From Aggregatibacter sp. 2125159857 (lineage in GTDB: Bacteria; Pseudomonadota; Gammaproteobacteria; Enterobacterales; Pasteurellaceae): DNA of 64,000 nucleotides. The translations under genes were made by a program, and so were the position numbers. Each line of letters begins with the position of its first letter. Within the stretch, counting starts at the first letter, position 1. Positions 17,690 to 46,666 of this stretch are shown piece by piece. The stretch spans positions 868,001 to 932,000 of the forward strand of contig NZ_CP072548.1 of assembly GCF_017798005.1 (NCBI RefSeq). The letters are read 5' to 3'. The notes beneath the pieces were generated by a model that had not been told where the DNA came from, made no database searches, and saw nothing but the letters and a program-made list of their open reading frames with translations.

Positions 17690-20227
17690 TTAATGCTGTT
17701 CATTTTGTTGGGCTTGCTGCGCCGCTTTTTTCGCTTTAGCACGTGCGATCGCGGCGGCAATGGCAGCTTTGCGCGGATCCGTGTCTGCCGGGTTTTCATC
17801 TGAAATTTGAACTGCACTTTGAGCTGTTGCCGGTTCGGTAGAGGCTACGGTTTCCCCTTGCTGAGCGGCTTTTTTCGCTTTGGCGCGTGCGATCGCGGCA
17901 GCAATGGCAGCTTTGCGCGGATCCGTGTCTGCCGGATTTTCATCTGAAATTTGAACCGCACTTTGGTCTGTTGCCGGTTCGGCAGAGGCTACGTTTTCCC
18001 CTTGCTGAGCGGCTTTTTTCGCTTTAGCACGTGCGATTGCAGCAGCAATGGCAGCTTTGCGCGGATCCGTGTCTGCCGGATTTTCATCTGAAATTTGAAC
18101 CGCACTTTGGGTTGTTTCAGGTTCGGCAGAGGCTACGTTTTCCCCTTGCTGCGCCGCTTTTTTCGCTTTAGCACGCGCGATCGCAGCCGCAATGGCAGCT
18201 TTGCGTGGATCTGTTTCCGCTGTATTTTCATCTGAAATTTGAACCGCACTTTGGACTGTTGCCGGTTCGGCAGATGCTACGTTTTCTCCTTGCTGCGCTA
18301 CTTTTTTCGCTTTAGCACGCGCGATCGCAGCCGCAATGGCAGCTTTACGTGGATCCGCTTCTGCCGGATTTTCATCTGAAATTTGAACCGCACTTTGGTC
18401 TGTAGCCGGTTCGGCAGAGGTTACGGTTTCCCCTTGCTGCGCCGCTTTTTTTGCTTTGGCGCGTGCGAGCGCGGCAGCAATCGCAGCTTTGCGCGGATCC
18501 GTGTCTGCCGGATTTTCATCTGAAATTTGAACCGCACTTTGGTCTGTTGCGGGTTCGGCAGAGGCTACGGCTTCCGCTTGACGGGCTAATCGGCGCGCCT
18601 TGCGTTGTGCCATGATGTCGCGATTGTCAGGCTGAATGTGACCTTTTTCATCAATAAGGGTTTTTTGCTCAATTTGCGTATTTTCTGCAGACTCGGCCTT
18701 TTTCGCTTTTAAGCGTTCTAAGGCAGCGGCGACCGGATCGACGCCTTTTTGCTGTGCTAATTCCTCACGGCGTGCTGCGGCAGCGCGTTGAGAACGCGCT
18801 TTGCGTTCTTGTTCTTCCCGTTCTAGGCGGGCTTGGCGTTGTTCAAAACGGATCTTCGCTTCTTCTGCTAATTTTGCTTTATGTTTAATTTCCCAAATTT
18901 TGGCTTTTTCTTGGCGGAAATATTGAATAAGCGGAATGTGGCTTGGGCAAACATAGGCACACACACCACATTCAATACAGTCTTTGAGAGAATATTCTTC
19001 CGATTTTTCGTGATTTTCACTGCGGGCAAACCAATAGAGTTGCTGCGGCATCAGTTTTACCGGGCAAGCATCGGAACAGGCAGAGCAGCGAATACAGCTT
19101 TTTTCCGGTTCCGGTGGCGCATATTCAAAATGATCCGGTGCCAATAAGCAGTTTGCCACTTTGGTCATCGGCGCATTTAAATCAGGTAGAATGACACCCA
19201 TCATTGGACCGCCCATGAAGACTGGGAAACGGTCGTCATATTGGTAGCCGGTTTCACGCAATAAATGAGAAATCGGTGTGCCAAAGCGAGCCCAATAATT
19301 GCCTTTATTAGGAATTTTATCGCCGGTGAGGGTAACAACGCGCTCGATTAAAGGCTCATCATCAAGTACGGCGCGTTTAATGGCAAAGGCGGTTCCTACA
19401 TTTTGCATGAGCACGCCAATGCTAGAAGAGCGTTGTCCGCTTGGCACTTCCATACCTGTTAGCACTTGAATGAGTTGTTTTGCCGCACCGGACGGATATT
19501 TTGTTGGAATAACACGGATTTCAATATCATTCGCGCCATGTAATGCATGTTCTAAGGCGGAGACTGCTTCTAATTTATTGTCTTCTATGGCGATAACGAC
19601 TTTTTCAGGGCGCAAAATATAACGCAGAATACGCACGCCCTCGATGATTTCATCGGCACGATCGCGCATTAAGCGATCGTCGCAGGTGATGTAGGGTTCA
19701 CATTCTGCCCCGTTAATAATCAGCAGTTTGACCTGTTTTTCAGCAGAGTGAATTTTGGCGGCTGTCGGGAATACCGCGCCACCCAAGCCAGCGATGCCTG
19801 CTTGATAAATTTTTTCAATGAGCTGTTCCCGCGTTTGGGTGAAAAAATCCTCGATTGGCATTTGTGGTCGCCATTGATCCAAGCCATCTGCTTGAATATG
19901 TACGCAGGTTTCTGTCAATCCGGATGGATGTGGCGCGACATAAGGCGCGATATCAATCACTGTACCGGAGGTGGGGGCATGAACAGGTAAACTTTGTAAG
20001 CCATCGCCTTGTGTCAGAGGTTGTCCTTTGAGAACCTGATCCCCAGGTTTTACCAACAGGTTTCCTGCACGACCGGCGTGTTGTTTTACCGGCACATAAA
20101 AATCATCGGGCAAGGGTAGCGTGCGAATGGGTGTGCCGTTGGATTGGGACTTCATATCCGGCGGGTGAATACCACCGTCAAATTCCCAAAGTTTGCCACT
20201 GTTAAAACGTGTTAATACATCCGCCAT
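17690..20227 (-). CDS. rnfC: Electron transport complex subunit RnfC (RsxC) with expanded C-terminal repeats
   Basis: Peripheral NADH-binding, iron-sulfur and flavin subunit of the Rnf complex. The N-terminal half has the NqrF/NuoF-like nucleotide-binding region ([12 protein letters not shown], about residues 147-158). Two [4Fe-4S] motifs follow: [13 protein letters not shown] (about 377-389) and [13 protein letters not shown] (about 416-428). After residue 450 a charged coiled-coil-like stretch leads into six tandem 48-residue repeats rich in Ala and Lys (about residues 555-842). This makes the protein 845 residues, longer than the roughly 740 of E. coli, whose RsxC also carries C-terminal repeats. 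The repeats probably act as a flexible tether. Confidence 0.93.
17700..18563 (-). repeat. Six in-frame 144-bp tandem repeats in rnfC, each bearing a USS position
   Basis: The unit encodes 48 residues (from [16 protein letters not shown] through [18 protein letters not shown] to NVAS). The uptake-sequence core ACCGCACTT recurs at 17955, 18099, 18243, 18387 and 18531, and the mutated form ACTGCACTT at 17811; all are exactly 144 bases apart. Copies differ by scattered synonymous and a few replacement changes, so the array is real rather than a collapsed assembly artefact, although the copy number may vary. Confidence 0.95.
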
Positions 20228-21503: not shown

Positions 21504-21548
21504 ACCGCACTTTTTGATACGCCGAAAAGTGTATTTTAAAAGTGCGGT
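21504..21548. promoter_or_regulatory. Inverted pair of DNA uptake sequences
   Basis: ACCGCACTTTTT (21504-21515) and AAAAGTGCGGT (about 21538-21548) face each other and could form an 11-bp hairpin. Such paired uptake sequences commonly serve as terminators in this family. Here it lies upstream of rnfA, beside the composite repeat. Confidence 0.6.
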
Positions 21549-21569
21549 GGATTTTTCAGCCGTTTTATT

Positions 21570-22030
21570 ATAGCCAGCCAAAGTCTGGCTGTAAAAGCCA
21601 TAGGCTATGCGTATGGCGCCAAATAGCTTAAGCGATGAACAGAAAAAAATCCTCGCTACATAATGAACAAGGCTGACAACCGAAACTCAACATATAGGAC
21701 GATTATTTAACCCCTCGTAGCGTGCAACTTGTTGCACGAATAATTAACTTCGGTACGTAATTTACGATTTCATGCGTATCGTGCATCTTGATGCACAACC
21801 AAATAACGCACGGAACGTTATTTAATTCTTTCAGGCATTCACGATTTCGTTCGTAGCGTGCATCTTGATGCACGACCAAATTACGCAAGGAACGTTATTT
21901 AACGCTTTCAGGCATTCGCGATTTCGTGCAACAAGTTGCACGCTACAATTCACTAAAATAGTGATATGAAAATAAACACGGTTACCGGTTTTCACACGCC
22001 CCTTGAAGGTTTGTGAAGTATAGACCCTTA
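21570..22030. repeat. Composite palindromic element, copy A (REP/REPIN core)
   Basis: This gene-free stretch has the same ends as 42672-43110. The left end holds two hairpins, TAGCCAGCC...GGCT and CCATAGGC-TAT-GCGTATGG, then CCAAATAG. The right end holds ACTAAAATAGTGATATGAAA, then ACCGGTTTTCACA and GTGAAGTATAG.CCCTTA. The core carries hairpins of the form GTAG plus CGTGCAAC-TT-GTTGCACG at 21717-21738 (+), 21853-21874 (+, GCATC-TT-GATGC version) and 21925-21946 (-). A decayed one starts GTAT at 21776-21797. GTAG plus hairpin is the hallmark of REP sequences moved by RAYT transposases. The right edge touches the hsdR stop codon. Confidence 0.75.
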
Positions 22031-25000
22031 CTGGGCTAATTCTTCTGCAATTTCTTCCGCTTGCTTAATCACATAGCTCACGGCTTCTTCTTGTTTATCC
22101 GGCGGATATTTGTAGCGTTGCAAGGCGCGTTTCACGAGAATACGCATTTTGGCACGAACGCCTTCTTTGTATTGCCAGTCAATCGTAACTGAGCGTTTTA
22201 ATGTATCAGTAATTTCTTTGGCTAGTTTGGAAAGCACTTCATCGCCCATCAGTTCCCGTGCGCTTTGGTTTTGTGCAAGTGCTTCATAGAATGCCAATTC
22301 TTCTTTTTTCAAGCCTAACTTTTCACCTAAAGCTAAGCGTTCTTGGAAGTCTTGGCTCATTTTGAAGAGCTCATCCAAAATTTCTACCACGCTTAAATTG
22401 TGGTTGTGATATTGGTTTAAGGCTTCTTTCAAACGTTGCTCAAAGTCTTTTTGCAAGGTGAGGTTTGCACCTGATTTGGCTTTGATTTCGCTTGCCAAAT
22501 ACCGCTCCATTGCGCTGACCCATAAATTCTTCGTCGGGCTGTTTTTGATGGTCTGTAAAAACTCTTCGGAAAGCAGGCTGATTTGTGGCTGCGGTTTTTC
22601 CAGCAGATCAAATAAATCAATGACGCCTTCGGAATAGACGGTTTGATTGACCAATTTTTTTAATAAAATCTGTCTTTCATTTGTGCCCGTGCCGTTTTGT
22701 TCGCGCTTAGTGAGAATGGCACGCACGGCATCATAAAAGGCAATCTCTTGGTTGTATGGCTCGACTTCCGCTAAGGCACCACATAGCATATAACCTTTTT
22801 TCACCAAGCCAGCCGCTTTCAAAAAGGCTTTTTTGCGAGGCTCGGCTTCTTTTTTATCAAACCAATGTTGCTCGTGCGCTTTGCCATCAAAAGGTAATTG
22901 ATCAAGACTTAAAATATGGTTGGCGGCAAAACGAATCGCCATTAGTAATTCATGTGGTTCGTCCTTCTCTAAGGCGGCTTGAACATCAAACGTTTTCCCT
23001 TCAACCGGCGTTGCAAACAGGCTACGCACAAATTCTAAATGCTCTTTCATTTTAAAGAACACATCAATCACGCTATCCGTCAGCTTGCCCTTGCCTTGCG
23101 AATTGGTGTATTGCCGGGTGGCTTTTTTGAGCTCGTCAGCAATGCCTACATAATCCACAATCAAGCCGCCATTTTCTCGGCTTTTATTACGGAATACACG
23201 GTTAACCCGAGCAATCGCCTGCATCAGGTTATGCCCCTGCATCGGCTTGTCGATATACATCGTATTACAACAAGGCGCATCAAAGCCCGTCAGCCACATA
23301 TCGCGCACAATCACCACTTTCAGCGGATCGTTTGGGTCTTTAAAGCGGCGTTCCAGCGTTTGTTTTTCCTGTTTACTGTAAACGTGTTTCTGCATTTCCG
23401 GCGCATCGGAAGCAGAACCTGTCATCACAATTTTAATCGCCCCTTCGTTAATATTGTCCGAATGCCATTCAGGACGCAGTTTGATGATTTCATTGTATAA
23501 GTCCACGCAAATCTGACGACTGGAAACCACTATCATTGCTTTGCTATCGACCACTTCATTGCGTTTGGCAAAATGCTGCACAAAATCTGCGGCTAAATCG
23601 GCAAGGCGGGCTTGCGAACCCAGCAATTTTTCCTGCAAACGCAGGGCAGGGGATTGCTCCTCTTCCAGCAAATCATCAATTTCTTTGAATAGTTCATCGT
23701 GTTCTTTTTCGTTTAAGCGGATTTGGCGCGCTTCATACACAATCGGCACCGTTGCGCCATCTTCCACCGCATCTTGCAAGTCATAAATCGACACATAACG
23801 CCCAAACACATCTTGCGTGTCCTTATCTTCTAGGCTAATCGGCGTACCGGTAAAACCGATAAACGAAGCATTAGGTAGCGCATCGCGCAAATGGCGGGCG
23901 TAGCCTGCCTGAAATTTGCCTTTATGCAATTTTTGCGTAAAGCCATATTGGCTGCGGTGTGCCTCATCGCTGATTACAATAATATTGCTGCGCTCATTTA
24001 AAACAGGGAAGCAGCTTTCTTCCTCATTTAGGGCGAATTTCTGAATCGTCGTAAAAAACACGCCGCCGACTTCATTTTGCGCGAGCAGTTGGCGCAGTTG
24101 ATCGCTGTCTTCCACTTGTTGCGGTGTTTGTTTGATTAAATCTTTGCCTGAAGAAAAGGTTTGGAAAAGCTGACCGTCCAAATCGTTGCGGTCGGTGACC
24201 ACCACAATGGTAGGATTTTTCAATTCAGGCTGCGCAAGCAGTTTGCCGGCATAAAACAACATGGAAATAGATTTACCCGAACCCTGCGTATGCCACATCA
24301 CGCCAATGCGGTGGTCGCCTTTTTCCGAAGTCGCAAAAAGAGTGGAATCGACCGCTTCATTTACGCCGTAATATTGATGGTATGCCGCGATTTTTTTAAT
24401 GGTTTTACCATTGGAATCCCGCTCAAATAAGACGAAATAGCGGATATAGTCCAATAAATCCTCAGGCTTCATCAAGCCATTGAGCAGGCTTTGCAATTCA
24501 TCGTCAAAATATAAGCGCGCGCTTTGATTTTTTTCATCCACCACTTTCCACGGTGTAAAGCGTTGGAAATCTGCCGAAAGCGAGCCCAAGCGTGCGGCAA
24601 TGCCGTCTGAAATAATCAGGGCTTGGTTGTAAACAAACAGCTCGGCAATCTCATCTTTATAGGTTTCAAACTGATTAAATGCCTGCAATAAATCTGCCGA
24701 TTCACGCAGCGGATTTTTGAGCTCAAATACCACCAAGGGCAGACTATTGACAAAGCCGATAATATCGGGAATCCGTTTGCCCCCTTTACGGCTGCGGATT
24801 TCCAGCTGATTGACGGCAACAAAGCGGTTGTTCTTCACCTGCTCAAAATCCACCAAGCGCGCCATTTCTATTTTTTGCTCACCGTTTGCCTGGTATTCCA
24901 CCCGCACGCCATCACGCAACAGTTTATAAAACGCCTGATTACGCACCACCAAGTCGCCGATATCGGTTTTCGTCGCGGATTTCACCACAGAATCAACCGC

Positions 25001-25189
25001 ACTTTCAGGCAGTTGCGGATTAAGTTTACGCACCGCCTCACGCAGTTGCTCAATAAAGACTACGCCGCTCAAATCGCCACGGGCAAACTCGCCTTCATGA
25101 ACAGGCAAGTCTTTACCATAGCGATATTCCCAACCGAGGGATTGTAGGCGTTGAATGGTGAGTTGTTCGATGTCGTTTTCGTTGAGCAT
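22028..25189 (-). CDS. hsdR: Type I restriction endonuclease subunit R (HsdR)
   Basis: Motor and nuclease subunit of a type I restriction-modification system. It translocates DNA and cuts at a distance from unmodified sites when complexed with HsdM and HsdS. The 1053 residues begin with a PD-(D/E)xK nuclease (PDIIGF...VVFELKN, about residues 141-159). SF2 helicase motifs follow: Walker [12 protein letters not shown] (about 295), DEAH box [11 protein letters not shown] (about 405), and motif VI region QAIARVNRV (about 661). Length is typical and the frame is intact. The start has AAGGAAC upstream. It is separated from hsdM-hsdS by the FRG and Fic genes. Confidence 0.95.
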
Positions 25190-25648: not shown

Positions 25649-26755
25649 CTACGGCACGATTTCGTAATACAGGCTTCGTCCGCCGCCACTTGCACGCAAA
25701 ATGTTTTTTGCAACTAAATCCGTGAGATCGCGCAGTGCCGTATCGCGCGAAACTTTCGTTAATGCGGCATATTTTTTATTGGTTAAATTGCCTTCAAAAT
25801 CATCCAATAAACGATTTAATACCTTGCGTTGTCGTTCGTTTAAATCGAATTTTCGCCATTTTTGCCAATAACGATGTTTGGCTAACACCTGATCTAAGGT
25901 CTCTTGGGTAGCATGCATTGCCTCAATCATATTTTGAATGAACCATGCAATCCACGTTGTTATATTTGTGAAGCCTTTTTGCGTATTTTCTAAAATCTCA
26001 TAATAATCCGACCGCACTTTTTGAATTTGTGCGGAAAGACTATAAAAACGCGGAGCGTTTTTTTCTGTTTTTGCCAGTAAAAAATCCGCAATCGCACGGG
26101 CAATACGTCCATTGCCATCTTCAAAAGGATGTAACGTCAAAAACCACAAATGGGCAATCGCCACTTTAATAAAGGGATCACCTTTTTCTTCGCGATTAAT
26201 CCAAGCTAAAAAACGTTGCATTTCAACGTCTAGTGTTTCTGCCGGTGGGGCTTCAAAATGGATTTTTTGCTTTCCAATGTTGCCGGAAATCACCTGCATT
26301 GCGCCCTGTTTGTCATCGCGCAATGCCGCAACGTTAATTTTCGACATTCCGCTATAACCGGTCGGAAAAAGCGCAGCGTGCCATGCAAATAAGCGTTCTA
26401 ATGTCAAGGGTGTATCTACATTGGTCGTAGCATCGAGGGTCATTTCGACGATGCCTTCAACGGCTCGATCCACTGGCAATAAACCGCCGATTTCAACGCC
26501 AAGACGACGCGCAAGGGAAGAACGCACTGATTGAGGATTCAGCCATTCCCCTTCAATTTCACTGCTTTTGACGATGCTATGCGTCAGCGATTGCAGACCC
26601 AGTTGTGCCAATTCCTCAAAGCCAATATCCCATAAACGACCAAATAGTCGTCCTTGCTGATAGTGCGCTTGATTGAGCAAAGGCAGTAATGCGGTTAAAT
26701 CATAATTCCATGTTGTCCAATTTTTCTGTTGCCAAATATATTTCTCATTCATCAT
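25649..26755 (-). CDS. Fic family protein (DUF4172/Fic, class II)
   Basis: Fic enzymes transfer AMP or other nucleotide moieties to protein hydroxyls; the target here is unknown. The 368 residues carry the core HPFEDGNGRIARAI (about residues 213-226), with the catalytic His and the anion-binding GNGR. Upstream is the inhibitory motif SSEIEG (about 67-72), fitting [S/T]xxxE[G/N], so AMPylation is probably held in check intramolecularly. A DUF4172-like N-terminus (about 8-85) and a C-terminal winged-helix-like segment (about 310-365) complete the common bacterial Fic layout. It sits inside a type I R-M operon and is bracketed by palindromic repeats on both sides. Confidence 0.9.
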   Translation of the reverse strand: MMNEKYIWQQKNWTTWNYDLTALLPLLNQAHYQQGRLFGRLWDIGFEELAQLGLQSLTHSIVKSSEIEGEWLNPQSVRSSLARRLGVEIGGLLPVDRAVEGIVEMTLDATTNVDTPLTLERLFAWHAALFPTGYSGMSKINVAALRDDKQGAMQVISGNIGKQKIHFEAPPAETLDVEMQRFLAWINREEKGDPFIKVAIAHLWFLTLHPFEDGNGRIARAIADFLLAKTEKNAPRFYSLSAQIQKVRSDYYEILENTQKGFTNITTWIAWFIQNMIEAMHATQETLDQVLAKHRYWQKWRKFDLNERQRKVLNRLLDDFEGNLTNKKYAALTKVSRDTALRDLTDLVAKNILRASGGGRSLYYEIVP

Positions 26756-26869: not shown

Positions 26870-27256
26870 GCTTTAAATCTCCCCTAACCCCTCTTTGCTA
26901 AAGAGGGGAATGGTATTGAGCGTAATTTTAGTTTAGGTGTTTTTTATGAGTAATTTCTCTGTTAATCTGACCGCTTGTAGCCAATAAACCTCCCCAATAG
27001 TCCCCCCTCTTTGCTAAAGAGGGGAATGGTATTGAGCGTAATTTTAGTTTAGGTGTTTTTTATGAGTAATTTCTCTGTTAATCCGACCGCTTGTAGCCAA
27101 TAAACCTCCCCAATAGTCCCCCCTCTTTGCTAAAGAGGGGAATGGTATTGAGCATAGTTTTAGTTTAGGTGTTTTTCATGAGTAATTTTGCTGTTAATTC
27201 GACCGCTTGAAGCTAATAAACCTTCCAAATAGTCCCCCTCTTTAGCAAAGAGGGGA
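26870..27256. repeat. Tandem array of 116-bp units with CCTCTTT hairpins
   Basis: Hairpins with core CCTCTTTGCTAAAGAGG begin at 26888, 27004 and 27120, exactly 116 bases apart. Each is followed by nearly identical sequence (GGAATGGTATTGAGC...TAGTTTAGGTGTTTTT...GAGTAATTT...GACCGCTTG). A fourth hairpin at 27235-27255 has the opposite core orientation (CTTTAGCAAAG). The palindromic family is the same as at 25259-25640 on the other side of fic. No ORF is convincing, so this fills the gap between fic and the FRG gene. Confidence 0.85.
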
Positions 27257-27281: not shown

Positions 27282-28191
27282 TCAACCTTGTGGATTATTT
27301 GGTAAAGAGGATATTATTATTTTTTCTAAATCATTATTAGCTTTATTAATTATTCCGTCTAAGTCAGGGTATATATATTCTTCAGTAACACCATAGAAAT
27401 TAAGTAGCTTTAAAATTTCATCTCTTAAATTCTCAGAAATATAATATTTTCTAATCATTATGCTGGTTATTGCATTTTTATCTTCTTCCGATTTTATTTG
27501 AGGTATATTAAATAACTTCTCTTTTAATGTTTTTAAATGAAAATCAATTCCCCAGTAAGTAAATAATCCTTGTTGAGCTGTGATTCTCCCATAGTAATCT
27601 ATCTTTGGTTCATAAATATATTTATGTTCTTTGTCTATATTTTGAAAGTTATAGGCTAATCTGTAAACAGCTCTATATGATGTATCATTTTTTTGTTTAT
27701 GAAATGCAAAGAATAGAGCATTGAAAAAATTTTGTCCAGTCCACTAAAGGTGTTTTTAAGTTATAGTGTTGACCAATCGCCCAAAGTTCTTCATCATTTT
27801 CAGGAGAATCATTAAGAAGAAGGAATTGAACGTTAGCCTTTCCTCTTATCAATTTTTTAACGTTAGCTAAATGTGCTTTTGCAATCTTATTATAATCTTC
27901 ACTTGTAGGTGTAAATACTGATGTAATTTCTCTTTCCAATGTGCTTGTTATTTTCCAGTTTGAATTTCGTTGCCCTCTGAAAATAAAGGGTATTTTTAGA
28001 GAGTCATTATATATGCTATTAATTAAAACTTTTAGTTGTTCCATTGTTTCTATTTTGATTGAATGAAATCCTTCTTGGTTGTTATCGTATTTTTCTAATA
28101 TATAATCTTCTATTGAATCTACATTTGATATATTAATGATATTAATTTTATCAATATTAGTTACTTTACACATGAGCACAAAAATCTCCAT
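27282..28191 (-). pseudogene. FRG-domain protein gene, split by a frameshift
   Basis: FRG-domain proteins are uncharacterised but often found with mobile or defence genes. The first part (28191-27697) has the naming motif FIFRGQRNSNWKI and GQHYNLKTPLVDWTK, then runs off frame at an A4T6 run (27724-27733, plus-strand A6T4) to a stop. Continuing in the other frame (27725 to stop 27282) gives NALFFAFHKQKND...YRAVYRLAY...RITAQQGLFTYW, exactly the missing second half of the family. Restored length is about 300 residues. Loss of one base or gain of two at the run would repair it. The gene is much more AT-rich than its neighbours. Its start overlaps the hsdS end by 26 bases, or begins at 28173. Its last codons run into a palindromic repeat. 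Confidence 0.85.
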
Positions 28192-29593
28192 TCAATAATC
28201 TAGGCAGTAATAACTCTCTTGTTTTACTTAAAAGCATATTTTCATTTGATGTCATTTTTTCAAAGATAACACCTACTTTTTCATAAAAGGTATTGAATAT
28301 ATTTTCATCAGGAATAACAATAAGTTCATTTTCAAGAAAATTTTTTGTTTGGAAATTGCTAATCCCTGTACTTTGTAATTGATATTCCCAAGTTTTTCCT
28401 TGTGTATAAATCATTTTTAAATGACAAGCCAGCAATACAGCAATTTTTTCATTGATTGGTGTAAATAATCTACAAAAGCTAGCAGGAATAACTGGAAGAT
28501 CAAAGTTACAAAGTAAATTTTTTGTAATTAACAATGACCGCCCTGTTGGTTGGTTTTTACTTCCTCCTGAGACTTCAATAATAATATCGCCATATTTTGC
28601 CTTACGGCTTTTCAATTTATTTTTTGTAATATATCGTTTAGGGATTGCGTCAAATTCATTTGTTTGAATATTAGGAAGATCTGTTCCTCTAAAGATAAAA
28701 ACATTTTCCGTATGTTTTTCGTCTTCTTCCTCTTTACCCCAATCCCCTCCGATTGTATTTTCTAAAAGAGAACCAAAAGGCTTAACCTCCCACCCCTTCG
28801 GCACCTCCACCCCATCAACTACCACCATCTCACACGGAAACGCTTTGGCGGTTTCGGCTAATTCGGCGTAGCGTTCAGGCTGTGTTTGTGAAAGTGTGGT
28901 CAATTCTTCGGATGTTTTTCCGCTGATTGTCTGCATGGCTGCCAGTTCTGCTTGTTCAAGGCTAAGGCCGTCTGAAAGCGCTTGGACTTTGGCACGCACA
29001 GGATCGAAATCGACAAACCAGCTTTTAAACAGGGCTTGGGCGATTTGTTCCAAGGTTTGGTTGATTTGAGTATTGAGTTCTATTTTTTTATCTAAATCAG
29101 ATAAAATTCTAGCAATTTCTTTTTGTTCTGAAAGTGGAGGTAACTTAAATTGGTATTTCGATAAATCACCAATTTTCATATTTAATTGAACAGATGTACC
29201 ACCAGATATTCCATCAATATAACCGCTAAAATGTTTTGACTTGAAAACATAATAAATAAATTGCGGATCAACTTTTTCTATTTTCAAACGTATTCTTGCT
29301 AAGCCATTATTAAAAACGGCAGGTAATTCTTCTTTTACTAGATAGCAAATACCTGTAGAACAAGTTCTTGCCATAATAATATCGTTAGGAACAAGCTGAA
29401 ATTTTTTGAAGTCTGTATCTTTAACCTCAGTATATCCCCATTTATCAAATGACTTATTTTGAGAAATATCTTGTATTCTCAAGCAACGTAAATTTGTTTT
29501 ATGTTCAACAATCGGAGCTCTACGAATAGCATCTAATCCTGTATTAATACTTTCTGTTACACCTTCTAATGTTACCATTTGCCAATCACTCAT
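28166..29593 (-). CDS. hsdS: Type I restriction-modification specificity subunit (HsdS)
   Basis: DNA-recognition subunit that fixes the bipartite target of the type I system. The 475 residues show the two-fold arrangement. The first target-recognition domain spans about residues 1-165. A conserved spacer helix follows (LPPLSEQKEIARILSDLDKK, about 155-174, then QINQTLEQIAQALFKSWFVD). The second target-recognition domain spans about 265-420, with a closing helix ending LLLPRLLNGDF. The start overlaps the hsdM stop by 8 bases, and the FRG gene overlaps its 3' end. The target sequence cannot be read from sequence. Confidence 0.93.
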   Translation of the reverse strand: MSDWQMVTLEGVTESINTGLDAIRRAPIVEHKTNLRCLRIQDISQNKSFDKWGYTEVKDTDFKKFQLVPNDIIMARTCSTGICYLVKEELPAVFNNGLARIRLKIEKVDPQFIYYVFKSKHFSGYIDGISGGTSVQLNMKIGDLSKYQFKLPPLSEQKEIARILSDLDKKIELNTQINQTLEQIAQALFKSWFVDFDPVRAKVQALSDGLSLEQAELAAMQTISGKTSEELTTLSQTQPERYAELAETAKAFPCEMVVVDGVEVPKGWEVKPFGSLLENTIGGDWGKEEEDEKHTENVFIFRGTDLPNIQTNEFDAIPKRYITKNKLKSRKAKYGDIIIEVSGGSKNQPTGRSLLITKNLLCNFDLPVIPASFCRLFTPINEKIAVLLACHLKMIYTQGKTWEYQLQSTGISNFQTKNFLENELIVIPDENIFNTFYEKVGVIFEKMTSNENMLLSKTRELLLPRLLNGDFCAHV

Positions 29594-31272
29594 ACCCCAA
29601 TCCCCCTAAATTTTTCTTAATCTCCGCTTCCAACTCTGCACTTTTCGCAAATTGTTCCTTCAAAAGCGCGGTCAGATGTTGCATTTTTTCTGCAAATGGC
29701 ACGCCGTCGTCTTCTTGTTCTGCGGTGCCGACATAGCGTCCCGGTGTGAGGACGAAGTCGTTGCCCGCAATCTCTTCTAAAGTCGCAGATTTGCAGAAAG
29801 CAGCTTGATCTTCATAGCCGTCTGATGTTTGCCAAGCATGGAGGGTGTCGGCAATTTTGGCGATGTCGTCAGCGGTGAAGTCACGCAATACGCGGTCTTT
29901 CATGTAGCCTATTTGGCGGGCATCGATAAATAACACTTCGCCTTTGCGCTTTTTGTTGCGGTTTAAAAACCAAATACAGGCGGGGATTTGGGTATTGGTG
30001 AAGAGCTGGCTGGGCAGGGCAACCATACATTCGACCAAGTCGGCATTGATGATGGCTTTGCGGATTTCGCCTTCATTGTTGGTTTGGCTGCTCATGGAGC
30101 CGTTGGCAAGCAATAATGCCATTTTGCCGTTGGGCGAGAGGTGGTAAATCATGTGTTGCAGCCAAGCGAAGTTTGCGTTGCCTTTGGGCGGCGTGCCGTA
30201 TGCCCAACGTGGGTCATCGGCCAGGGATTCGCTCCACCAATCGCTGATATTGAATGGCGGGTTTGCCATAATGAAATCCATCTTTTTGTCGATGTGTTGC
30301 GGTTGCGTGAAGCTGTCGGCGTTGTGTTTGCCGAAGTCGTAATCAATGCCGCGAATCGCCATATTCATCGCCGCCAGTTTCCAAGTGGTCGGGTTGAATT
30401 CTTGCCCGTAGATGGACACGTTGTTGATGTTGCCTTGATGGGCGGTGATAAAGCGTTCGGTTTGCACGAAGAAGCCGCCGCTGCCCATAGCCGGGTCATA
30501 CACGCGGCCGGAGTATGGCTTGAGCATTTCGACAATCAGGGAAACAATGGATTTGGGCGTGAAATATTGGCCGCCGCGTTTGCCTTCTGCTTGGGCAAAG
30601 CGACCGAGGAAGTATTCGTAAACATGGCCGAGAATGTCTTTTGCGCCTAAATGCACGGGCTCGCCGTTGTAAGTCGGGCGGGTAAAGTTGGTATCGGAAA
30701 AGAGGATAATCAGCCCGCGCAGGGTGTCCTCGTTTACGGCATAGCCGATGATGCGTTGGAGTACGCCTTTCAGTTTTTCGTTGTCTTTTTCAATGGCATC
30801 GAAGGCATCGTCAATCAGTTTTGCTACGCCGGAAAATTTCCCGCCCCAAGGTAATTCTGCACCGATGTTTAAGATGGAAACGGCTTTAATCTCGTCCCAA
30901 CGGGCTTGCTGCGGCACCCAAAACACATTGTCGGCGGTGTAGTAGTCGCGGTTTTCCAGTTCGGCGGTTAAGGTTTCTTGGTATTCTTCTTCGGTGTCGT
31001 AAAAAGTGCGGTCAAGATAAAGCGCGTTTTCAGGATCGGTTAGTTCCGTCTGAATTTTGGCTTGTTGATGGGTAAAACTGTCGGAAATGTATTTTAAGAA
31101 GATCAGACCAAGGACGATGTGTTTATAGTTAGCCGCATCAAGTTGTTGGCGGAGTTTATCGGCAGATGCCCAAAGTTTTTCATCTAATTCATTTAAAAAT
31201 GCTTGTTGTAATGCGTGATTTTCATCGACAATCTTGGTCGTCTCGTCTCGTCTCGTCTCGTCTCGCTTGCAT
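29586..31272 (-). CDS. hsdM: Type I DNA methyltransferase (HsdM), phase-variable and out of frame here
   Basis: N6-adenine methyltransferase subunit of the type I system. The intact domain part shows the N-terminal helical region (LWASADKLRQQLDAANYKHI, in frame upstream of 30926), the SAM motif (VYDPAMGSGGFF) and catalytic NPPF (ANPPFNISDWW). The natural ATG (31272, with AAAGGA upstream) is followed by five CGTCT units. From it the frame reads 16 codons to a stop, one base out of the HsdM frame. The HsdM frame itself is open back to about 31147-31150 past the repeat but lacks any ATG, GTG or TTG before GTG 30926. One more repeat unit, or two fewer, would restore a protein of about 560 residues. 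H. influenzae HindI hsdM uses the same GACGA unit. Confidence 0.9.
31239..31263 (-). repeat. Pentanucleotide repeat tract (five units) at the 5' end of hsdM
   Basis: CGTCT repeats five times on the plus strand (AGACG, a permutation of GACGA, on the coding strand), three codons after the hsdM ATG. Slippage by one unit shifts the frame, giving on/off switching. The present count leaves hsdM off. Confidence 0.93.
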
Positions 31273-31387
31273 AAATTATATCCTTTGTAAAGTGATTTTA
31301 AGAAAATGTGTGTAATTTTTGCGGTCGTTTGGCACGCTAAGCAAAGCTAGCTTAAAAAACGTTGTCTTTTTCGACCGCACTTTGTGA

Positions 31388-31996
31388 TTATTTCTGCGCC
31401 AAATAACGTTCCACCGTATCCACGATAGCTTGTGTTTGCGGATCGATTTCAATATTGACTTTTTCACCCACCGCTTTCTTGCCAATTAGCGTACGATGAA
31501 TGGTTTCCGGAATCAGGTTGACGCAGAAGCTTTGTTCACGGACTTCACCGATGGTTAAACTGATACCGTCCACAGCAATAAAACCTTTGGTTAACACATA
31601 TTTCATCATGTCTTGATTCGGCAGTTGGAACCAAATTTGCAGGTTGTTTTCGGAAGGAATGCGTTCAACGATGTCCGCGGTGCAATACACATGGCCGGAT
31701 AATATATGCCCGCCGATTTCTGTGCCCATTTGCATGGCGCGTTCGATATTGACAAAATCACCAGCCTTTAATGCGCCTAAATTAGTGATTTTCAAGGTTT
31801 CTTGCATTAAGTCGAAACTCACCAAATTGCCTTTGATTTCCGTGACGGTTAAACACACGCCATTGTGCGCAACGGACGCACCGATTTGTAATCCTTTCAG
31901 CATTTCTTGTGGCATTTCCACCACGTGTGTTCTAAAATTAGCCGCTTCTGTAATAGCCTTAATTTGTGCCGTACCTTGCACAATGCCTGTAAACAT
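31388..31996 (-). CDS. ribE: Riboflavin synthase alpha chain
   Basis: Final enzyme of riboflavin synthesis, dismutating two 6,7-dimethyl-8-ribityllumazine molecules. The 202 residues form two lumazine-binding barrels. The first starts MFTGIVQG. The second contains [20 protein letters not shown] (about residues 91-110) and ends near 190. Length is typical. The divergent neighbour mdtK matches E. coli order. Only 24 bases separate the two starts, leaving no room for an FMN riboswitch, and none is seen. Confidence 0.95.
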
Positions 31997-46237: not shown

Positions 46238-46261
46238 TGGCTTGTTTATTTTAAGGTTAAG

Positions 46262-46564
46262 TTATTTGCGTGGCAGTGAAATTTTATGTTCTTCACTAGG
46301 GCGATACAACACTAACACATGTCCTATCGTTTGCACCTCAGCCGCACCGGTTTCACGCACAATGGCATTGATGATCAGTTGTTTGGTTTCACGATCGGAC
46401 CCGCTAATTTTCACTTTAATTAACTCATGGTGGCTGAGGGATAAATCAATTTCCGCCAATACCCCTTCGGTTAATCCGTTACCGCCTAACATCACCACCG
46501 GGCTTAAATGATGGGCAAGACTTTTTAAATATTGTTTTTGTTTGGTTGATAATGTAATCGACAT
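46262..46564 (-). CDS. yhbY: Ribosome assembly RNA-binding protein YhbY
   Basis: CRS1-YhbY domain protein that associates with pre-50S particles, 100 residues. The family GxxG loop is visible as VVMLGGNGLTEGV (about residues 23-35), and KVKISGSDRETKQ and TIGHVLVLYRPSE follow in the expected places. Single-gene unit convergent with slyB. In E. coli it neighbours rlmE and ftsH; that context is not present here. Confidence 0.92.
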   Translation of the reverse strand: MSITLSTKQKQYLKSLAHHLSPVVMLGGNGLTEGVLAEIDLSLSHHELIKVKISGSDRETKQLIINAIVRETGAAEVQTIGHVLVLYRPSEEHKISLPRK

Positions 46565-46666
46565 AATAATCTCTTGAAAAAAGGGAGGCGGTGATTCTAA
46601 AGCAAAATGCCTATTTTAGCGAATGCATTCCGATGAAAAATAGCGCTAAAATTCACCGCACTTCCA

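Follow-up and report, generated by a model that had tools for sequence, protein, structure and literature searches.

Introduction

Type I restriction-modification complexes require the M subunit, HsdM. The hsdM gene of Haemophilus influenzae (HI1287) carries a pentanucleotide repeat, and the available part of one report cites switching rates for it, scored by phage HP1c1 lysis, that are high even for four units (PMC2651432). Phase variation of hsdM3 in the same species via a CGAGA tract, with OFF products of 13, 16 or 24 amino acids, is described in the available part of a second study (PMC6646836). This part also reports that the hsdM3 alleles of isolate pairs from two patients differ by 5-bp units (deletions), that deletions of 5 bp and 10 bp coexisted at the tract in one lung isolate and that hsdM3 and hsdS3 transcripts were increased rather than reduced in two OFF isolates (PMC6646836). 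Likewise, hsdM is treated as phase-variable in the accessible sections of PMC10073500, PMC6156194 and PMC3938747. Simple repeats occur in about 10% of type I systems, and the species whose type III or type I systems can vary in this way include M. haemolytica and G. parasuis; for these two, the available part of the source gives no hsdM units (PMC7394358). The type III mod genes (modA) of phasevarions likewise encode methylases switched by a repeat in the coding sequence; the system described here is type I, not type III.

The window, i.e. the whole stretch of 64,000 nucleotides analysed here, carries an hsdM gene with the same repeat unit at the same position after the start as hsdM3 of H. 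influenzae (HI1287, NTHI1838), (GACGA)n being the same as (CGAGA)n. An OFF product of 16 amino acids is also common to both, as far as the available part of the hsdM3 study goes (PMC6646836). The HsdM protein of the window is 94-97% identical to that of four named Haemophilus loci (L035, L036, L037 and L044), whereas its HsdS is only 37-38% identical to the HsdS encoded beside hsdM in L036, L037 and L044. In contrast to the Haemophilus systems, the host is Aggregatibacter-like and the locus lies beside ribE. In addition, some Haemophilus-type gene models start at an upstream ATG, and the window has no such ATG. The hsdM genes of A. kilianii and A. actinomycetemcomitans (loci L038 and L102, genomes G006 and G008) encode orthologous HsdM proteins, 87-90% identical, and also have an array directly after the start, but their unit is the 7-nt AAGCCAG and their HsdM bodies fall outside the window's set in our tree.

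Because phase variation of hsdM has been published for H. influenzae, the finding is ordinary in kind: the repeat-switched hsdM is of a known kind, and type I repeats in other Pasteurellaceae are at least partly known as well. What merits attention is the family pattern rather than the single tract. Atack et al. 2020 (FASEB J) reportedly surveyed type I repeats in REBASE, and this survey may list some of the tracts; in the literature searched, mostly by title, we found no description of the pattern. As for phase variation of hsdM in Aggregatibacter, the available part of PMC3339403 has no description of this locus.

Results and discussion

The pentanucleotide tract places hsdM out of register with its start

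The features at the start of hsdM are as follows.

31270..31272, minus strand: start codon ATG of hsdM (sequence and frames; the start context is similar in the upstream strings of relatives)
31281..31286, minus strand: AAAGGA, probable ribosome-binding site of hsdM (sequence, and its position at a fitting distance)
31238..31265, minus strand: (AGACG)5 pentanucleotide tract, proposed switch (sequence, Tandem Repeats Finder, pattern search, Markov test)
31222..31224, minus strand: TGA that, with the tract in its present register, closes the reading frame of the ATG after 16 codons (frame translation)
29586..31346, minus strand: open HsdM frame with HsdM_N and N6_Mtase domains and no ATG, GTG or TTG before 30926 (frames, domain search)
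30924..30926, minus strand: first in-frame GTG of the HsdM frame, which would give a form of 446 amino acids (frames, domain search)

Read on the minus strand from 31272, the sequence runs ATG CAA GCG, five AGACG units and then ACC AAG ATT. Tandem Repeats Finder describes positions 31238-31265 as 28 nt of period 5 with 5.6 copies and 100% match. Translation from the ATG at 31272 yields MQARRDETRRDDQDCR and then a stop (16 codons). The HsdM frame is +1 relative to this frame and is open from 31346 to its TGA stop at 29586. ATG is absent from its stretch upstream, and the GTG at 30926, 115 codons after 31271, is preceded by no ATG, GTG or TTG in this frame, only by the less usual start codons ATT, ATC and CTG. 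In the domain search, the HsdM query of 551 amino acids has HsdM_N at residues 20-163 and N6_Mtase at residues 200-512, so that a start at GTG 30926 would cost most of HsdM_N. HsdM is predicted to be OFF in this sequence, because the frame of ATG 31272 stops early and the HsdM frame has no usual start before GTG 30926.

The longest period-5 run of 28 nt compares with a maximum of 17 nt and a mean of 13.4 nt in 60 first-order Markov sequences of window length. A pattern search for three perfect GACGA units found no second match anywhere in the 1,999,512-base genome. A promoter scan of 31100-31700 found none, with 0.8 expected by chance. The tract has the characteristics of a simple-sequence contingency locus, namely a repeat beyond chance, a unit length that is not a multiple of three and a location in the 5′ coding region. 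It is a GACGA-type pentanucleotide tract directly after the hsdM start, and loci L005 and L037 have the same leader and unit.

The first-pass annotation had proposed five AGACG units after ATG 31272, a stop after 16 codons and an HsdM frame that is open across the tract without a start of its own, all of which agrees with the sequence, the Tandem Repeats Finder result and the translation above. Its frame arithmetic, in which one unit more or two units fewer restore the HsdM register, is right. It had also stated that the same pentanucleotide varies hsdM in H. influenzae, as the available parts of PMC2651432 and PMC6646836, the latter with isolate pairs, confirm. The interpretation of hsdM as phase-variable is supported.

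hsdM belongs to a type I locus with hsdS and hsdR

Reading along the minus strand, hsdM is followed by hsdS, an FRG-domain gene, a Fic gene and hsdR, in this order.

28166..29593, minus strand: hsdS, specificity subunit, its ATG overlapping the hsdM stop (ORFs, domain search)
27697..28191, minus strand: FRG-domain protein, PADLOC candidate PDC-S15, frame interrupted (domain search, PADLOC, protein comparison)
25649..26755, minus strand: Fic/SoFic-like protein between hsdS and hsdR (domain search)
22028..25189, minus strand: hsdR, type I restriction subunit with a HindI-like C-terminal domain (domain search)

The earlier assignment of the gene as a type I hsdM stands, given its HsdM_N and N6_Mtase domains and a locus that holds both hsdS and hsdR. 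HsdM scored 189 bits against NCBIfam TIGR00497 (hsdM), which is under the cut-off of 243, while the Pfam and PADLOC matches are strong. Apart from the tract register of HsdM, each of HsdM, HsdS and HsdR is encoded by a long open frame and matches its family strongly. When the window's five proteins were compared with 24 named loci, some of which end before hsdR, FRG was matched in 6 and Fic in 2. In the FRG gene (window 27300-28191, minus strand), similarity to the first half of the family extends over the first 164 codons, after which the remainder continues as an open stretch in a different frame. A tandem repeat of about 116 bp in 3.2 copies with hairpin-like ends lies at window 26888-27256, between the FRG gene and the Fic gene; it has 16 matches in its own genome, itself included, the others being short.

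Leaders of otherwise identical HsdM homologues differ

Among the best 120 of 8000 scored homologues, several proteins are identical except for their leaders. P0031, P0032 and P0033 agree over 541 residues after the leader and begin with MQARRDETTKIV..., MQARRDETRRDETTKIV... and the upstream-start form, respectively. Among the same matches, P0046, P0047, P0048 and P0049 are identical over 540 residues, and P0064 and P0065 over 539 residues, again with different leaders. Since some of these identical bodies (P0031-P0033 and P0046-P0049) have leaders that differ by repeat blocks, the length of the tract varies among alleles of the family; the leaders are predictions from public assemblies, and assembly may have affected the repeat number. 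Gene models of P0002, P0007, P0011, P0033 and others start from an upstream ATG (MNIQTSDK...) and cross the tract in another register. If these models are real, the strains concerned could be ON in two registers out of three.

Position of the proposed switch is conserved but its repeat unit varies

A search of 140 Pasteurellaceae genomes, sampled at the species level, gave 69 with an HsdM match at E 1e-100 or better. One locus was considered per genome; within the 330 nt upstream of the conserved HsdM body, the best array with a period of 1-12 and two or more copies was selected. An array was found at the gene start in 51 of the 69 loci, the window included, and no array in 14. Four loci were set aside, their repeats being short and not located at the start (G116, period 6; G146, period 1; G007, period 4; G011, period 5). 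The 51 arrays represent 16 motifs, with 5-nt units in 28 genomes, 7-nt units in 17 and 4-nt units in 6; the unit length is never a multiple of three. Across the 69 loci, arrays of at least three copies and at least 15 nt numbered 45 in 21,700 nt of start region versus 1 (period 6) in 230,686 nt elsewhere, where one locus may contribute more than one array. No register of any of the 16 motifs contains a stop, as would be the case for 69-81% of random units, and T is absent from 12 of them.

A quick tree of 66 HsdM bodies, which omits the short rows G161, G162 and G139, shows at least 30 changes of the unit label if absence is treated as a state; for the 49 array-bearing rows, the minimum is 19. 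These changes count replacement in place and transfer of the 5′ end together. Units of equal length were closer to each other than shuffled units only for the 7-nt class (P 0.0015). Unit change by single substitutions as a general route was not borne out, as the 5-nt (P 0.20) and 4-nt (P 0.37) units were no closer than shuffled ones.

The switch keeps its place in the gene but not its repeat unit (51 of 69 loci, 16 units). It seems likely that the 5′ end of hsdM is a family-wide contingency site at which repeat words have repeatedly been replaced, with selection for switchability itself and with whole switches moving between genera together with the system. These loci and repeat words constitute a natural experiment on the origin of simple-sequence switches, on changes of their unit and on their persistence.

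The OFF register is common in the family

An ATG could be read within 45 nt upstream of the array in 46 of the 51 genomes; the other five have no ATG in those 45 nt, and in four of these the stretch begins at the array. Judged by the start register alone, irrespective of later damage, 10 of the 46 are ON and 36, including the window, are OFF. G112, which the script scored as in frame (11 in total), meets a stop after 11 codons from its own start and was counted as OFF. Under free slippage one third would be expected to be ON (P=0.06), and we do not claim a bias towards OFF. With 36 of 46 readable array loci OFF, the OFF state of the window is unremarkable. For the same reason, gene models in the family may often miss full-length HsdM. 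Of 18 genomes without a start array, 10 have an ATG with a ribosome-binding-like site in frame (G116, G111, G118, G135, G142, G146, G088, G016, G011 and G024), 6 have this ATG off register (G163, G125, G110, G160, G157 and G007) and 2 are unreadable (G139 and G021).

Proposed mechanism and alternative explanations

The tract is very probably a slipped-strand contingency switch of a HindI/hsdM3-type type I restriction-modification system. Replication slippage would add or remove 5-bp units in this strain, and the number of units would set whether the HsdM body shares its frame with ATG 31272. With five units, translation would stop after 16 codons, and full-length HsdM would be expected to be absent. 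Since type I complexes need HsdM, neither M2S nor R2M2S would form, and methylation and, presumably, restriction would be off together; at another unit count both would be on. The benefit may be bet-hedging, with phage defence balanced against openness to DNA.

The rate of slippage may be low, because five units are short; this contrasts with the high rates given for four units in the available part of PMC2651432. Some leak could occur through the less usual starts (ATT, ATC, CTG) or through frameshifting. A polar effect of the OFF state on hsdS is plausible from the overlap of hsdM and hsdS. We considered such a shut-down but do not assume it; in H. influenzae it is unsupported, because hsdM3 and hsdS3 transcripts were higher in two OFF isolates, according to the available part of PMC6646836.

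Alternatively, hsdM could be decayed and permanently off, the tract being a relic in an eroding island. The interrupted neighbouring FRG frame would fit such erosion, as would 6 of the 18 array-less family genomes that are off register from an ATG preceded by a ribosome-binding-like site (G163, G157, G160, G110, G007, G125). We nevertheless consider decay improbable: the frames of HsdM (register aside), HsdS and HsdR are long and open and match their families strongly, and the tract keeps five perfect units. Still less probable is that HsdM is made despite the register, from a less usual upstream start, from GTG 30926 or by frameshifting, so that the repeat tunes its level, an explanation that is compatible with the other readings. 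The frame is open up to 31346 and contains ATT codons, and the upstream starts of some Haemophilus-type gene models (MNIQTSDK...) would open a second register there; however, the upstream stretch of the window is without ATG, and the GTG form would be without most of HsdM_N (query residues 20-163). Finally, 28 nt are short for any common read length, which counts against a unit having been lost or miscalled in sequencing or assembly in a culture that is really ON. Such an error is the least probable explanation, with a genome in one contig and OFF as the commoner start register of the family (36 of 46 readable, window included), even though an allele mixture was read at the hsdM3 tract of an H. 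influenzae isolate (PMC6646836, available part) and 5 of the 51 array genomes have no ATG in the 45 nt upstream, the stretch beginning at the array in 4 of them.

If the tract is a slipped-strand switch, it is predicted to turn restriction and methylation of the whole system on and off, with the OFF state in this sequence; the methylome and the openness to foreign DNA should therefore depend on the clone grown.

Origin of the hsd island

The island was delimited by comparison with eight congeners.

31371..31374, no strand assigned: right edge of the hsd island (the match covering ribE starts at 31371 or 31374, just past the ribE stop, in 8 of 8 congeners)
21548..21560, no strand assigned: left edge of the hsd island (where the main match on the rnf side stops in each of the 8 congeners, followed further on by a dispersed repeat and then by hsdR)

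The ribE-side and rnf-side flanks are on different contigs in four of the eight congeners and on the same contig but at least 143 kb apart in the other four; in G002, one of the latter, they could be nearer if the contig is circular. At E 1e-100, HsdM had no match in five of the eight congeners. Because the flanks are separate in the congeners and five of them lack such a match, we place the hsd island at a rearranged junction and regard it as probably acquired.

The surrounding ribE-norM DNA is Aggregatibacter-like. It is 80-93% identical in the eight congeners. Among eight genomes tried in all, it is 82% identical to the genome with the A. kilianii locus L038, 80% to the genome with the A. 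actinomycetemcomitans locus L102 and 69-71% to five others, with no match in the H. sputorum genome. The best named riboflavin synthases among the at least 120 matches listed are from Aggregatibacter.

The HsdM of the window, on the other hand, falls into a set of nine rows in the quick tree of 66 HsdM bodies (SH-aLRT 99). This set includes H. parainfluenzae (G123, the same as L036) and H. sputorum (G116, the same as L035), both matched by coordinates, as well as G163 (locus L034) and G164, which have another genus code. A clade of the window with three Aggregatibacter HsdM rows, chosen by genus after inspection of the tree, was rejected (lnL difference 66.6, AU p 0.0004). Both the SH-aLRT value and the AU test against the Aggregatibacter clade indicate that the HsdM body shares descent with Haemophilus alleles. 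This grouping outside the Aggregatibacter rows, with H. parainfluenzae and H. sputorum among others, suggests that the system was probably acquired together with its switch from outside Aggregatibacter. The donor was most likely Haemophilus-like, with G163 and G164 of another genus sharing the nine-row set.

A pattern of the hsdM 5′ end (two units plus flank) had 0 exact matches in viral contigs. In a comparison of the hsdM 5′ region with plasmids, 13 records matched, none covering 80% of the query.

Further repeats and rearrangements were observed near the island. In all eight congeners, the stretch beside ribE matches part of window 46243-46663. This match directly abuts the ribE-side match in five of them (G001, G002, G004, G005 and G006), and the gene order around ribE (window 31374) is therefore rearranged in this genome. 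A dispersed repeat lies at window 21560-22027, downstream of the rnf genes; the query holding it gave 161 matches in its own genome, itself included, and 6-19 per congener. At window 17713-18580, an in-frame repeat of 144 bp in six copies forms the end of a protein of 845 amino acids, which we take to be encoded by rnfC; the gene names rnfA, rnfC and norM are our own presumed assignments.
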